Shown in pieces: positions 52,530 to 58,794 of a DNA stretch of 64,000 nt (the stretch's first letter is position 1; every line of letters starts with the position of its first letter). This stretch comes from Pirellulales bacterium (GTDB taxonomy: Bacteria; Planctomycetota; Planctomycetia; Pirellulales; JAEUIK01), in NCBI GenBank assembly GCA_019745975.1, contig JAIESQ010000045.1, forward strand, positions 1 to 64,000, in the 5' to 3' direction. The notes beneath the pieces were generated by a model. The model did no database searches. It was given only the letters and a program-made list of their open reading frames with translations, and was not told the origin of the DNA. The translations under genes and the position numbers were made by a program.

Positions 52530-53681
52530 CTAAAACTCACCGGGAGGCTCGTTGCCGGCGCGGGTGGCCAGGCCGCGATAGGTTGCGGCGTCGACCTGGT
52601 CGGCAATGAAGTGCACGCTGCCGTCGACCATCAAATGATGGGCGCCACTCGCGTGTTCACTACTTGGTCCCCACTTCCAATCGCTTTGGAAACCGCTGCT
52701 GGAGGGCGTGCCGTTGAGGTCGCTCTGCAGCATGTAGACCGAACGATTCAAGGCTGTTTGCGTGTCGCCGCTGGGGCTGGGATGGAGCATTAGCGCGACG
52801 GCTGCCGTGCTCCCCTCCCACCAGGCAGCGTAACTGCGCTCCTTGGTTTCGGTACACAACACCGTGTTCGTGGCCCCGTCCCTGATGTCGGCAAACCGGG
52901 TCGGGTTAGGGCGTCTGGTCGTGGGCGGAGACAGCACACCGTTGGGCACGGCGCCTGTCAAGAATCCCCACGTGCTCCCACCGACCCCGACGTAATTTGT
53001 CAGCGCCGGACTCTTCCAGGGAATCACATCATACTCAACGGCCTCGGAGACGAATTCATCGCCAAACGACGGGCAGCGAAAGGCCGGGAGTTGGGCCTGT
53101 GAAACGAGCACGTTTCCCTGCGGGGCCGCACCGCTGAACCCTGCCTCGTTCCATGTCGCGCGGCGAAAATCGATCGTGGCTTGCAGACTCTGTTGTTCCA
53201 GATGGGGCAACAACATCGCGAGCCAACTGAAAACGTGACCGCAAGGAGTGCCAGGTCGACTACCGACCGGCGCAAGCTTTGTGCGAAAGGTACCGCCAAA
53301 TGGACCAACCACCGGGCCGGTGGAACTCGGCGGAAACGCGCCGCAGGAGCCGTGGTAGTTGTGCAAGGCCAAGCCGAGCTGTTTGAGATTGTTGCGGCAC
53401 TGAGTGCGCCGCGCGGACTCGCGGGCCGCCTGAACTGCCGGTAGCAGCAGGGCGATCAGTGCGCCAATGATGGCGATTACGACCAGCAACTCCACCAACG
53501 TAAACGCGCTGCGGAGTTCTCGGGCTGTCCTCGCGGGGGATCTTCGATCGAGGCGCGACAGCCAGACGATGTCAGCGTGAATGGAATCGAGGCGGGTACG
53601 ACCCCTGGCTAGTGATTCGCGCGGGTCGCGTTGTTCGGTGCGTGCGACGACTGTGTTACGGGGAAGGTGGTGCATGGTCAT
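52530..53681 (-). CDS. DUF1559 protein with prepilin-type N-terminal methylation helix
   Basis: The 383-aa protein has an unusually long, Arg-rich N-terminus of about 45 residues. The type IV prepilin segment AFTLVELLVVIAIIGALIAL follows, with the processing site before Phe and Glu at +5. DUF1559 follows with LPAVQAARESARRTQCRNNL and LALHNYHGSCGAFPPS, and the C-terminal block GAHHLMVDGSVHFI (H-x-DG motif). Planctomycetes carry many such pseudopilin-like proteins, probably exported and assembled at the cell surface. A GAGGACGGAG site precedes two possible ATGs six bases apart. It is downstream of an ECF sigma gene on the same strand. Confidence 0.9.
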   Translation of the reverse strand: MTMHHLPRNTVVARTEQRDPRESLARGRTRLDSIHADIVWLSRLDRRSPARTARELRSAFTLVELLVVIAIIGALIALLLPAVQAARESARRTQCRNNLKQLGLALHNYHGSCGAFPPSSTGPVVGPFGGTFRTKLAPVGSRPGTPCGHVFSWLAMLLPHLEQQSLQATIDFRRATWNEAGFSGAAPQGNVLVSQAQLPAFRCPSFGDEFVSEAVEYDVIPWKSPALTNYVGVGGSTWGFLTGAVPNGVLSPPTTRRPNPTRFADIRDGATNTVLCTETKERSYAAWWEGSTAAVALMLHPSPSGDTQTALNRSVYMLQSDLNGTPSSSGFQSDWKWGPSSEHASGAHHLMVDGSVHFIADQVDAATYRGLATRAGNEPPGEF

Positions 53682-53910
53682 GTCTCCGTCCTCAGGCGCC
53701 TGTGCCCGGCCATCGGCAAGTCGGTGGCCGGCGTGGGGATCGTTGCGGCCCGTCAAGAGAGCGGGCTTGCGATGATCTACGCCGCCGCCGCCTGGGCGTT
53801 GCGCGCTGGCAAAAAAAATTCTTGTCGGGCACCATCCACTCGCGTGACAACAAGCTCCCGCCACACGACTTTACGGCTACTTCCCTTGGCGCCCTAGTCA
53901 GCCGGGGTGG

Positions 53911-54564
53911 CTAACCGGCCCTGTGGTGCTCGCCTGTCAAGAGGAGAAACAAGTCACGGAACTTCCGCACCATGCGATGGTGACGGTAGCGAACTCTTTC
54001 TGGCGTCGATCCGGTTCGCAGCGCCACCTCGGAAACCGATAGCTCCTGTACCGAACGGAGATAGAAAACTTCAAAGTTGCGTGGTGATACCTCACCGCGT
54101 AAGTGGTCGATAACCGTGTGGACCACGGCGGCGCGCCAGCGGCGGTCGATCTCTACCGTGGGATCGTTGCAGGGTGCGGCGACATGATCCGTGCGCTGCT
54201 GCGCCTTGAATCGCGCGGCGCGGCGCAAGCGGCGACGCATGAGATCGGTAGCGCGGGATCGCACGAGCGTGTACAGCCAACCGCGAAAGCTCCCGCGCTG
54301 GCGATCGTAGCGGAAGTCGCGAAGAGTCGACGTCACCGTCTGCAGCGCTTCCTGAACGCAATCGTCCACTTCGTCGCTCGGAACGCGACAGCGCAAGGCG
54401 AAGCCGCGAATCAGCGGTTCATAGATCTCGTAAAACGGCCGCCAGCCTTCGTCCGAAATCGGTTCGCCCCGACCCAAACGCTGTTCCAGATAGAATTGGG
54501 CGGCCACCAGAATCGCCGAATTGGTATAGCCGCTTCCTGAGTTCGACGATGCTTCCAAGTTCAC
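53911..54564 (-). CDS. ECF-type RNA polymerase sigma factor
   Basis: The 217-aa protein has sigma region 2 at about 45-112 (FALRCRVPSDEVDDCVQEAL with the core-binding acidic stretch, RGSFRGWLYTLVRSRATDLM with the -10 recognition helix) and region 4 at about 155-210 (VFYLRSVQELSVSEVALRTG, a helix-turn-helix). The long N-terminus is a planctomycete feature. The GTG start overlaps by four bases the stop of the degenerate DUF4838 frame upstream. No anti-sigma gene is adjacent. Likely targets are the DUF1559 and DUF4838 genes downstream, by inference from position only. Confidence 0.88.
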   Translation of the reverse strand: MNLEASSNSGSGYTNSAILVAAQFYLEQRLGRGEPISDEGWRPFYEIYEPLIRGFALRCRVPSDEVDDCVQEALQTVTSTLRDFRYDRQRGSFRGWLYTLVRSRATDLMRRRLRRAARFKAQQRTDHVAAPCNDPTVEIDRRWRAAVVHTVIDHLRGEVSPRNFEVFYLRSVQELSVSEVALRTGSTPERVRYRHHRMVRKFRDLFLLLTGEHHRAG

Positions 54565-55106
54565 GAGCGATCAATCCAAAACCAGGCCGTAGTTGCCAGG
54601 CCACAACCCTGGCTGACGAATGCCGCCGCCAAGGTGGTCCATTGTTCACAGGGCGGTCGTCGCCAATCCGACGCCACGGGCCTGGGGCAACCGTCTTGGG
54701 GACGCGGAGGCCCCAGGCCGAGCGGTCGATCGGCGCCAACGTGTCGAACCGAGAGGCGACACAATTGCGGCGCAAATTCGTCGACGCGGAAGCCAAGCTC
54801 CGCGGCGGCCGAACTGTCGCCAACGAGGATGCGTCGCCCCTTGGTCGGCGTATCCTCGCTGCGAATCGGCAGCTCCGCGCCGGCGATTTTCAGCACGTGA
54901 AATTGCAGTTCCAACGCCGCCAATCGCACGGCCGGATTCGGATTCTTCGCAATAACGATCAAACACGCCGGCTGCCCTTGCTCGACCGGCACGAAGGGCT
55001 CGGCACCGCGCGACGAGGACGCACTTGCCAGCAGTATCCCGCCTCGCAGTACCACGTACGCGACCAAGCACGTTGCATCCTTCGCCGCTCCACAAGTCAA
55101 CAGCAT
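54561..55106 (-). pseudogene. Truncated, frameshifted copy of the DUF4838 gene
   Basis: The first 110 residues match the N-terminal domain of the intact DUF4838 protein at 50575-52470: VEQGQPACLIVIAKNPNP, LAALELQFHVLKIAGAELPI and GRRILVGDSSAAAELGF align block by block. After APQ the two diverge. At the DNA level five bases present in the intact copy (two codons for Glu-Tyr) are missing near 54764, and the homologous protein continues in another frame (CVASRFDTLAPIDRSAWG against CVAFRPDTLVLIGRDW). The rest of the gene, about 500 codons, is absent, and the shifted frame ends at the sigma-factor start. It is almost certainly non-functional. Confidence 0.85.
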
Positions 55107-55303: not shown

Positions 55304-55316
55304 TTTCACCGAGACG
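55304..55316. repeat. 13-base direct repeat, copy 1
   Basis: The sequence tttcaccgagacg is identical to 56164-56176. This copy covers the stop codon of the PEP-CTERM gene. With the other copy it brackets that gene and its promoter region. It may be coincidence or a remnant of insertion. Confidence 0.4.
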
Positions 55317-55950
55317 TGCGGCGACGACGCAGCGCGACCAAGCCGATGGTTCCGATGCCCAACCCGGCGAGGCCGATCGAGCTGGGTTCCGGAACCAGGT
55401 GAGCATCGAGGTCGGCCAGAAAATTGATTTCCTCCTCGTACCAGTTCGCTACCCCGAAGCTAATGGTATTCACGCCCGGTACGAAACCGCTCGTGATATC
55501 GAAGGTGATATCCCTGTAGTGGGGAGGATCGTACGTGTTTATGTTAGCGGTAAGTACTGGACCGGCGATGCCATCCCCCTCGCTCCAAATTGTGGCGCCG
55601 TTGAGAACGATGTTGTGGATATATCCGTACTGAGCGTAAGCGCCCGCAAGGCCACCAATGTGCGCCTTCGTTTCGTCGTATCCGGTTAGATCGAAGTTCT
55701 GCAAGAATTCGCCTGAACCCGCGGGGCTGCTAATGCCAAGAGCCCAAGTAACGGTGGAAGTAGCAGAACCACCAATGGCGTCGCCGATCCACACGCCCGG
55801 CCTGTGCCCGAGCCACCCCCCCCAACCGCCATCGACCAGATCCTCGCCCGTGTCGTCGAGTGACCAGAGCACGTGGCTCGCAAGTGCGTTACCCGCCATG
55901 AGCCCGCTCAGGGCGAGGCCAAACGTAGCCAGACAGAATAAACGTTTCAT
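55306..55950 (-). CDS. PEP-CTERM sorting domain protein
   Basis: The 214-aa secreted protein has a signal peptide (LFCLATFGLALSGLMAGNAL), a beta-rich body of about 160 residues (WGGWLGHRPGVWIGD, ISFGVANWYEEEINFLADLD) and a C-terminal sorting signal: VPEPSS, a Gly/Leu-rich helix and RRRRTSR. The signal is recognised by exosortase, which removes the tail and links the protein to an extracellular matrix or glycan. The body matches no fold that I recognise. AGGAGA precedes the ATG. No exosortase gene lies in the window. It is divergent from the second sigma gene. Confidence 0.92.
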   Translation of the reverse strand: MKRLFCLATFGLALSGLMAGNALASHVLWSLDDTGEDLVDGGWGGWLGHRPGVWIGDAIGGSATSTVTWALGISSPAGSGEFLQNFDLTGYDETKAHIGGLAGAYAQYGYIHNIVLNGATIWSEGDGIAGPVLTANINTYDPPHYRDITFDITSGFVPGVNTISFGVANWYEEEINFLADLDAHLVPEPSSIGLAGLGIGTIGLVALRRRRTSR

Positions 55951-56369
55951 TAGCGTCTCCTAGTAAAAAGGGCCAACAGTTCCAAGAATCACACGGAAAC
56001 CTTCCGCGAAGCCGCACTCAATGCCCCCCAGCTTCGGAGCATCCAGGGTCAGTGACTGGCTACAGAAACCTTCCACCGTCGAGGAGTCGCCGCCGCCTCA
56101 GGCCGACTTTGCGACGGGGTGCCTGACAACCGCGCTACGGGCGCTGCACGCCAGTTCTTAAGGTTTCACCGAGACGCCTCCCCGCCTTCACCGATAGTAA
56201 AGACGTAGCGCCAAGGGAAACCGAACGAGGAATTCTTGTTTTTTACTCGTCGGCAGTCGGTTCCCAACGGCAGTTGTGAAGTTGGTTGCACTGCCGGTAT
56301 CGCAAAACTACGATGGAGTTAAGTGCAATTCTTTGCTGGTTCTTCTCTTCGGGCAGCGGCGACTTCTCC
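55951..56369. other. Divergent region between PEP-CTERM and sigma/kinase genes
   Basis: This 419-base stretch must carry promoters for both directions. It contains the second copy of tttcaccgagacg (56164-56176) and several cttcc-type repeats, but no clear -35/-10 pair. A/T-rich ttgttttttactcg at 56236 is the likeliest promoter area for the sigma gene. An in-frame extension of the sigma gene into 56286-56369 is possible but lacks a ribosome site. Confidence 0.45.
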
Positions 56370-56975
56370 ATGACCCCCAAGAGCGACTTGCAGGCGGACG
56401 TTGACCAAGATTTGCTCTTGGCTCGTGCTGGTGACCAAGAGGCGCTGGGCCGGTTGCTGGAATATTTCCGTGACTACCTGCAACTGGTGGCCGCCGATGA
56501 GCTGTATTCGGGCGTGCGGCCTAAGGTGGGCGCGTCCGATGCCGTACAACAGACCCTGCACGCGGCGGTTCGTGGTTTCTCAGCGTTCCGCGGCGACTCT
56601 GAGCCAGAACTGCGGGCCTGGCTGCGACAGATTCTCGATCACCAGATGATCGACTTGGCGCGATCGTTCCGACAAGCCCGACGCAACGTCGCCCGCGAAC
56701 GCGCCCTGAACCCGCTGCCGACGGTGGTCGATCCGCCAGCACGTGATGCCACGCCGTCGAAGGACGCTTGCGACAAGGAACAGCGGCTTGCGCTGCTGCG
56801 GGCGATCGAACAATTGCCCACCGACTATCGCGTCGTGATCGTCATGCGAAGCCTGGAAGAGAAGAGCTTCCAGGAGATGGGCGCGGCGCTAGGACGCAGC
56901 TCGGATGCCGTCCGCATGCTGTGGACACGCGCCGTGGAGCGCCTCCGCGTGGAGCTGGAGCGATCGCACGGCTGA
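56370..56975 (+). CDS. ECF-type RNA polymerase sigma factor paired with a lectin-kinase
   Basis: The 201-aa sigma factor begins DQDLLLARAGDQEALGRLLE. Region 2 has VGASDAVQQTLHAAVRGF and FRGDSEPELRAWLRQILDHQ with RSFRQARRNVARER; region 4 is at about 140-195 (LLRAIEQLPTDYRVVIVMRS, FQEMGAALGRSSDAVRMLWT). The VGASDAVQQT form is typical of planctomycete ECF factors linked to Hanks kinases. The start is the ATG that begins the family core; ATGs at 56313 and 56286 would extend it. The kinase gene starts 34 bases later on the same strand, so phosphorylation rather than an anti-sigma factor may control it. Confidence 0.88.
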   Translation: MTPKSDLQADVDQDLLLARAGDQEALGRLLEYFRDYLQLVAADELYSGVRPKVGASDAVQQTLHAAVRGFSAFRGDSEPELRAWLRQILDHQMIDLARSFRQARRNVARERALNPLPTVVDPPARDATPSKDACDKEQRLALLRAIEQLPTDYRVVIVMRSLEEKSFQEMGAALGRSSDAVRMLWTRAVERLRVELERSHG

Positions 56976-57009
56976 GTGGGCGGGGGGATCTGGACGTGGA
57001 TTGAAGCGC

Positions 57010-58794
57010 ATGGGCGATCGCCAGCAATCCGACGAGCTGCGCGTGCCGCCAGACGCAGGCGTGGTCCCGGCGGATGCGCTAGCGCCAATCCTGGAGCGCT
57101 TTCGCACGTCGACAAGTCCCGCACTTTGGGAGTATCTCAAGGGGTTAGACGAACCCCTCTCGGCGCATGCGGATCAGCGGCGCTGCATTGGTCGCTTCGA
57201 AATTGTTCGCTGCATCGGCGAAGGAGGTTTCGGCAAGGTTTTTGAAGCCTACGACCCCGACAACGATCGGAAGGTGGCGCTCAAGGTGCCCAGCGCCGAT
57301 ACGCTTCTTGACAGCGAGCGCGTCCGCCGTTTCGTGCGCGAGGCCCAAATTGGCGCTCGCCTGCGCCACCCGAATGTCGTCAGCGTCTTGGAAGTCGACA
57401 CCGACGGTGTGGTCGTCTTCTTGGTGATGGAGCTGTGCCGGGGTCCCGATCTGGCGCGCTGGTTGGCGACGCGCGACGGGCGGGTCGATGTCGACACGGC
57501 CCTGGAAATCTTGCTGCCGATCGTCGACGTGGTCGCGCTGGCCCATCGTCAGGCCATCGTGCATCGTGACATCAAACCGAGTAATATCCTGCTGGACCTG
57601 GCGGGCGACAGCCGCGACTCCAAGTCTCCGCCAAGGGCCTTCACCCCCAGGTTGTCCGACTTTGGTCTCGCCAAACTGCTCGACGGTGAGTCGTCGCGCC
57701 ACACGCAAAGCGGTGTGGCCGTCGGCACCCCCAGCTACATGCCGCCGGAGCAAGCCGACCGACGTCTCGGCGAGATTGGCCCCTGGAGCGATGTCTACGC
57801 GCTGGGGATCGTCCTGTTCGAATTGCTCTGCGGACAGTCGCCCTTTCAGGGGAAGACCCCCGGCGAAACGGCCAGATTCGTGCTGGCTCGACACGTGCAG
57901 CTACCGCGAAGCGTGCGACGGGAGATTCCGCGTTCGCTCGAAGCGATCTGTTTGCATTGTCTCGAGACGGCGCCGCGTGACCGCTATCAGACGGCCGGCG
58001 AGTTGCAGGATGACCTGCGCCTCGCCCTGGCGCGCAAGCGCACGCGCGCCCAAGCGCGCCGCGGATGGACAGGACCAGGTCGCCGACAATGGCGGGCCGC
58101 CGCAGCGGGCCTGCTGCTAGCGGCCGTTGCCGTCGTCCTCGGCGCATTCTGGGTTCGTGAAGCCGAGGTCGCGCTACCTGTTCCGGCTGATGACAAAGTG
58201 GCAACATCGCTGGCGATGGCGCACATGCTTAGCGGCGACCGCCGACCGATGTTGGAGCGGATTGGCCGCTTGCAGCAGCCTGCCGGCGTCGCTGGGGACG
58301 ACGCGATCGACGCGGCTGGCGCGCTCAACCGCATCGCCACCTGGGTTGATTCGGATACCGGCAAGAAACACGTCTATCAGTTGGTTTATATGTATCAGCA
58401 GGTCACCTGGGAGGACGCTCGCGACCTGGCGGCCGCCAGCGCCTATCAAGGAAAGCCTGGCCATCTCGCCTCGATCACCTCGCCGAGCGAGGCCACGTTC
58501 ATTCGCAAAGAGCTCTTGGCGCCAGCCTTGAAAGCTGGGCATGGCAGGGACGTTGATAACGTCGAGGCGTGGATCGGGCTCGTGCGAGACAAGGCCAGCG
58601 GCGACTTCCGCTGGGTGACTGGCGAGAAATTCGAGTTTAGCGTGTGGGGAAATGCGGAGCCCAGCAATGGCGATACCGAAGATTGCGCAAGTGTCGCGCT
58701 GCGCTGGGGAATTTCGTCGCACTACGGTGACTGGAACGACTACAATCACGCCTCGCCGTTCGTGCGCTTCTTTCTTATCGAGTATGAGCTGTAG
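57010..58794 (+). CDS. Hanks-type Ser/Thr kinase with extracytoplasmic C-type-lectin-like domain
   Basis: The 594-aa protein has a cytoplasmic kinase at residues 63-340: CIGEGGFGKVF, Lys92 in VALKVPS, HRDIKPSN (185-192), DFGL (217-220) and TPSYMPPEQ. One helix follows (about 362-382, AAAAGLLLAAVAVVLGAFWV), then a linker and a C-type-lectin-like domain at 455-594. The domain shows WEDARDLAAASAYQGKPGHL, AWIGLVRD, an EPSNG loop near 550, EDCA and GDWNDYN, which look like the calcium/sugar sites (EPN and WND types). Only one cysteine is present in the domain, so the usual disulfides are missing. A kinase-lectin receptor for extracellular glycan is the inferred role. Confidence 0.88.
   Translation: MGDRQQSDELRVPPDAGVVPADALAPILERFRTSTSPALWEYLKGLDEPLSAHADQRRCIGRFEIVRCIGEGGFGKVFEAYDPDNDRKVALKVPSADTLLDSERVRRFVREAQIGARLRHPNVVSVLEVDTDGVVVFLVMELCRGPDLARWLATRDGRVDVDTALEILLPIVDVVALAHRQAIVHRDIKPSNILLDLAGDSRDSKSPPRAFTPRLSDFGLAKLLDGESSRHTQSGVAVGTPSYMPPEQADRRLGEIGPWSDVYALGIVLFELLCGQSPFQGKTPGETARFVLARHVQLPRSVRREIPRSLEAICLHCLETAPRDRYQTAGELQDDLRLALARKRTRAQARRGWTGPGRRQWRAAAAGLLLAAVAVVLGAFWVREAEVALPVPADDKVATSLAMAHMLSGDRRPMLERIGRLQQPAGVAGDDAIDAAGALNRIATWVDSDTGKKHVYQLVYMYQQVTWEDARDLAAASAYQGKPGHLASITSPSEATFIRKELLAPALKAGHGRDVDNVEAWIGLVRDKASGDFRWVTGEKFEFSVWGNAEPSNGDTEDCASVALRWGISSHYGDWNDYNHASPFVRFFLIEYEL

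Follow-up and report, generated by a model that had tools for sequence, protein, structure and literature searches.

The window, that is, the whole 64 kb stretch of DNA that was analysed, carries an ECF sigma factor gene followed by the gene of a receptor-type Ser/Thr kinase, and a gene encoding a PEP-CTERM surface protein diverges from them. The features of the locus are the following:

55306..55950, minus strand: divergent PEP-CTERM surface-protein gene, 214 aa, with a signal peptide and a VPEP...RRRR tail (PF07589, E 8e-6)
55951..56369, no strand: 419-base gap between the starts of the divergent PEP-CTERM and sigma genes, presumed to hold the promoters of both
56370..56975, plus strand: ECF sigma factor gene, 201 aa, nearest to the planctomycete subfamily TIGR02984
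56529..56540, plus strand: codons of GASD, the region 2.2 tetrapeptide of the sigma factor (DAED in canonical ECFs)
56535-56537, plus strand: Ser56, proposed phosphorylation site of the sigma factor, aligned with the phospho-Thr of ECF43
57010..58794, plus strand: receptor-type Ser/Thr kinase with a predicted extracytoplasmic C-type-lectin domain, 594 aa (Pfam, hydropathy, motifs)
57199..57996, plus strand: protein kinase domain (Pkinase), residues 64-328 (E 1e-47)
58093..58158, plus strand: single transmembrane helix, residues ~362-383 (hydropathy, mean 2.4 over 19 residues)
58327..58791, plus strand: C-type-lectin domain, residues 440-594, modelled alone (profile, alignment, model)
58657..58740, plus strand: positions of the primary calcium/sugar site, E550, S552, E557, N576 and D577 (equivalences by alignment and from C-type lectins in general)

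The stop codon of the sigma gene and the ATG of the kinase-lectin gene (57010) lie on the same strand and are separated by 34 bases. No anti-sigma gene adjoins the pair, whose neighbours are the PEP-CTERM gene, found in the divergent orientation first read from the sequence, and a convergent dprA, which is the next gene downstream. An adjacent kinase and no anti-sigma gene is the gene layout of the kinase-regulated ECF class. With all the catalytic motifs present, GEGGFG (70), VALK (89), HRDIKPSN (185), DFG (217) and GTPSYMPPE (239), the enzyme looks like an active Hanks-type Ser/Thr kinase. An arginine-rich stretch just before the single membrane helix predicts that the kinase domain is inside and that the lectin domain, connected to the helix by a linker of ~55 residues, should face outward.

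Beyond the PEP-CTERM gene, a second ECF sigma gene without kinase partner (53911-54564, minus strand) is located beside a DUF1559 prepilin-like gene (region 52530-54564). The 181-aa ORF at 54561-55106, located between the PEP-CTERM gene and this second sigma gene, matched nothing in Pfam and may be a gene remnant.

Fold and putative sugar site of the lectin domain

The kinase-lectin protein is the sole Lectin_C match of the 6.98 Mb genome, and its match at residues 480-579 scored 38.5 bits with the whole protein and 43 bits with the domain alone (cut-off 22.6). Lectin-type domains taken from the window and from related loci of planctomycetes, 35 in all, could be aligned along their length, and the model of residues 440-594 built on this alignment reached a mean pLDDT of 92.3 and a pTM of 0.89. 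The best solved structures retrieved with Foldseek were CEL-I, CD23, langerin and the mannose receptor (E 1e-9 to 1e-8), and a second structural aligner gave Z scores of 18-19 against C-type lectins, with rmsd of 1.4-2.0. These values establish a true C-type-lectin fold for the C-terminal domain, which had been called C-type-lectin-like from its motifs. An FGE-like fold was also considered and rejected, as no PF03781 match was obtained up to E 1, either with the whole protein or with the domain alone, and the structure matches were C-type lectins.

The domain contains the motifs EPSN (550), EDC (557) and GDWNDYN (573). At the five positions of the primary calcium/sugar site, whose counterparts in mannose-binding protein we take to be E185, N187, E193, N205 and D206, four residues are retained (E550, E557, N576 and D577) and the Asn of EPN is replaced by Ser552. 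In addition, Cys559 is the single cysteine of the domain and the usual C-type-lectin disulfides are absent. Sugar binding by this domain is possible to judge by these residues, and it may be weak or absent because of the Ser at the calcium-site Asn position and of the missing disulfides. These same two changes would fit a lectin-fold domain which recognises no sugar and instead dimerises or binds a protein (the PEP-CTERM product, for example, or some other surface protein), the kinase still switching the sigma factor; the close structural matches also include non-sugar domains, such as CD23 and snake-venom proteins. However, four of the five site residues, those of WND among them, are kept, and CD23, which by our own reading of its sequence likewise has a hydroxyl residue at the substituted position, was solved with calcium bound (4g9a). 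We regard such a sugar-independent role as plausible without being probable.

Retroelement target loci of other bacteria bear protein kinase and C-type-lectin-fold domains (PMC10907252), and the lectin domain could by this precedent be the target of a diversity-generating retroelement in an immune-type sensor. Nevertheless, no template repeat, and no near-copy of the lectin-encoding sequence that might act as one, was found in the 64 kb window, and this candidate, which was rejected, appears extremely improbable.

Conservation of the sigma-kinase pair and rarity of the lectin version

The sigma factor scored 69.6 bits with the general ECF model TIGR02937, over its cut-off of 42.9. TIGR02984 (Sig-70_plancto1) was its best NCBIfam subfamily (E 7e-47), with a score of 159.4 bits that is below the curated cut-off of 183.75 and places the protein near this subfamily and not within it. 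In the family of this sigma, comprising loci of its own genome and of relatives, a kinase gene is directly downstream at 41 of 50 loci, and several of the other nine end at contig ends. ECF and kinase are thus strongly conserved neighbours, in agreement with the original prediction.

The lectin version of the pair is not conserved. No lectin domain was detectable in any other partner kinase among the 50 sigma loci surveyed, and the partner kinases scanned had either WD40 propellers or TPR repeats, or lacked any named domain. At E 1e-80 the full-length kinase-lectin protein had no other match in 57 relatives, and scanning of genome contigs with the whole protein gave relatives of the kinase domain only, none being reported across the lectin domain. 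Searching for DWNDYN as an exact pattern at the DNA level proved uninformative, with two other matches, at chance level, in 397 genomes. The lectin-domain searches covered an order-level set of 397 genomes and a phylum-level set of 392 (with some genomes in both; about 800 in total) and, among the best loci inspected, one further kinase-lectin fusion was identified. In this locus (L123:3347-6898, genome G395) a TIGR02999 ECF sigma with QATA in region 2.2 is followed by a kinase with one membrane helix and two Lectin_C domains. The L123 kinase had no orthologue at E 1e-20 in 240 genomes of its own family, and the two weaker L123 matches were a non-kinase protein and a contig-end fragment. The occurrence of this layout with sigma factors of two subfamilies suggests that the kinase-lectin design probably arose twice independently.

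This rarity, with no near-full-length relative in the 57 related genomes and one other fusion in about 800, would also be expected if the fusion were incidental, either because a paralogous ECF-linked kinase had recently captured a lectin domain for which no sensing role was selected, or because of an assembly error. Against it, the reading frame is single and intact, the membrane helix is well placed, the domain is confidently folded, and the independent fusion L123 shares the gene context. An incidental fusion is judged improbable.

Two other loci with lectin-type domains were noted. A fragment (L312/L313) with FGE-sulfatase and lectin-type domains opens in an apparent kinase membrane segment; a possible third fusion, it was set aside because it begins at a contig end and its kinase part is out of reach. 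In genome G210 (L128:3010-5812), an ECF-kinase pair is preceded on the same strand by the gene of a secreted protein that combines LamG-like and lectin-type domains with a PEP-CTERM-like tail, and by another PEP-CTERM-like gene.

Ser56 of the sigma factor and the divergent PEP-CTERM genes

ECF43 sigma factors are inactive until the partner kinase phosphorylates a Thr at the third DAED-equivalent position of region 2.2, by which the negative charge required for RNA polymerase binding is given back (PMC8999054; PMC13147305). In the window sigma the DAED-equivalent motif is GASD, and its third position is Ser56. Within its own genome, Ser is found at this position in 9 of 13 kinase-paired ECFs vs 2 of the 24 that are unpaired (Fisher p 2e-4). 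For this count the sigma at 53911-54564, inside locus L091 and without kinase partner, was transferred by hand from the paired set to the unpaired one. Among rows from relatives 34 of 41 have Ser there, with GASD as the commonest form. As Ser tracks kinase pairing and occupies the ECF43 position, the motif supports an ECF43-type phospho-switch for the window sigma, although it does not prove it. Counting against such a switch, GASD still has one acidic residue. Groups other than ECF43 retain acidic motif residues, and it has been cautioned in a review that their mechanism may differ (PMC8999054).

This retained acidity is in line with a kinase that acts otherwise than through Ser56 of its neighbour, at another sigma site such as the interdomain linker or on other targets, the activity of the sigma being set by its level. 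In Xanthomonas citri, EcfK is phosphorylated at five sites and the linker is important (PMC13147305). However, Ser at the motif position follows kinase pairing within one genome, and sigma-kinase adjacency is kept across most loci of the family (41/50). Action at another site or target is in our view rather unlikely, and phosphorylation of Ser56 is the reading developed below.

The own genome has 78 PEP-CTERM matches and 43 ECF matches, 15 of the latter being kinase-paired. A divergent PEP-CTERM gene is just upstream of 5 of these 15 vs none of the 28 unpaired ECFs (Fisher p 0.003), and such a neighbour would be expected for ~1.2 percent of random genes. Two of the divergent cases, L278 and L279, are outside the strong subfamily and are also kinase-paired. 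When 48 sigma upstream regions of the own genome and relatives were taken together, 16 of the 17 PEP-CTERM genes present pointed divergently, a count in which PEP-CTERM genes of relatives were called by sequence pattern and the loci are non-independent. Loci with the divergent layout are L085, L087, L278, L279 and the window (55306-56370), as well as L238, L244, L253 and L265. The PEP-CTERM proteins of L085, L244 and L265 are mutual orthologues between genomes, and that of the window has no homology to the other divergent PEP-CTERM proteins. With this bias in orientation, the suggestion that the pair is linked to surface-protein genes, at first only a hint, has gained support.

Among hexamers in seven divergent PEP/sigma regions no convincing shared ECF promoter motif was found. 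The 419-base gap contains four copies of GAAACC (three on the plus strand and one on the minus), two of them inside the repeated GAAACCTTCC; this hexamer was rejected as common promoter motif for being absent from four of the seven regions. At L085:277-3038, two tandem PEP-CTERM genes diverge from the ECF-kinase pair, and the distal one has an FGE-sulfatase domain, whose own fold is C-type-lectin-like.

Proposed mechanism and comparison with known systems

We propose, with somewhat more confidence than doubt, that the locus encodes a module of one receptor and one sigma factor. According to sequence and model, the kinase would span the inner membrane, its kinase domain being cytoplasmic and its lectin domain lying outside. 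The ligand bound there would most likely be a glycan, or surface material that is glycosylated. Ligand binding would bring the kinase domains together and activate them, as is the case for other bacterial kinases of the receptor type, and the activated kinase would phosphorylate the sigma factor encoded immediately upstream, most likely at Ser56, in the GASD that replaces the acidic DAED. The added negative charge would restore RNA polymerase binding as in ECF43, and the active sigma would then transcribe the operon to which it belongs and, probably, the PEP-CTERM gene that diverges from it, a last step which is supported by the neighbourhood statistics. The lack of conservation of the lectin-kinase fusion itself counts against this mechanism, as does the failure to find a convincing promoter motif in common.

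The PEP-CTERM genes of Proteobacteria are associated with PrsK/PrsR and sigma-54; this control was seen only there, and the regulators of other groups were left open in the 2006 study defining PEP-CTERM (PMC1569441). A broader proposal, which we consider doubtful, is that kinase-linked ECFs are the general control of planctomycete PEP-CTERM genes, in the role that PrsK/PrsR and sigma-54 have, and that the module described here is one that reads extracellular glycans through a lectin kinase. If true, the cell would tune its surface coat to the surrounding sugars. Kinase-linked ECF sigmas are numerous in planctomycetes and hardly any of their signals or targets are known; this locus offers a sensor fold amenable to ligand screening on glycan arrays and an adjacent candidate target gene. 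The divergent PEP-CTERM layout at kinase-paired sigmas provides these bacteria with a concrete and testable regulator candidate, and this association is, to our knowledge, the more original result.

The overall design of the protein recalls plant C-type-lectin receptor kinases, which have an outer C-type-lectin domain, one membrane helix and an inner kinase. The plant proteins differ in that the lectin is N-terminal, giving the opposite chain order, and they are an unrelated assembly with no sigma partner. The putative sensors of Thiohalocapsa retroelement loci likewise join a prokaryotic C-type-lectin fold and protein kinase domains, but they are diversified by the retroelement, have been proposed as conflict systems and are described with no ECF sigma (PMC10907252). 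Pairs of an ECF and a Ser/Thr kinase are already catalogued, among them the planctomycete groups ECF59, ECF61, ECF62 and ECF217, for which control by the neighbouring kinase has been predicted (PMC8999054). These publications do not sustain the initial view that the pairing was undescribed. The window sigma resembles those four groups as a planctomycete ECF with a neighbouring Ser/Thr kinase, although the neighbour alone assigns no group, and differs from them in its lectin sensor, the other partner kinases of our survey having WD40, TPR or no named domain.

The window pair shares with the ECF43 pairs, EcfP/PknT of Vibrio parahaemolyticus and EcfK/PknS of Xanthomonas citri, an ECF gene beside a membrane Ser/Thr kinase with no anti-sigma, a hydroxyl residue at the third DAED position and an outer sensor domain. 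However, its sigma is nearest to TIGR02984 and has Ser instead of Thr with one acidic residue left, and its sensor is a C-type-lectin fold, whereas that of PknS is a TPR-rich periplasmic domain. Since ECF43 requires an uncharged QTTA or STTA with Thr, the GASD motif places the window sigma outside that group, with which it has the neighbouring kinase in common. Our search yielded no account of an ECF sigma partnered with a Lectin_C receptor kinase in the open literature, a scope outside which the original ECF43 and planctomycete ECF surveys fall. A counterpart is L123, with the same order of sigma and then kinase, membrane helix and lectin, which differs in its TIGR02999 sigma with QATA, in the N-terminus of the kinase and in having two lectin domains without WND. 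The ECF-kinase pairing is thus a known one, and the lectin sensor is a rare new version of it.
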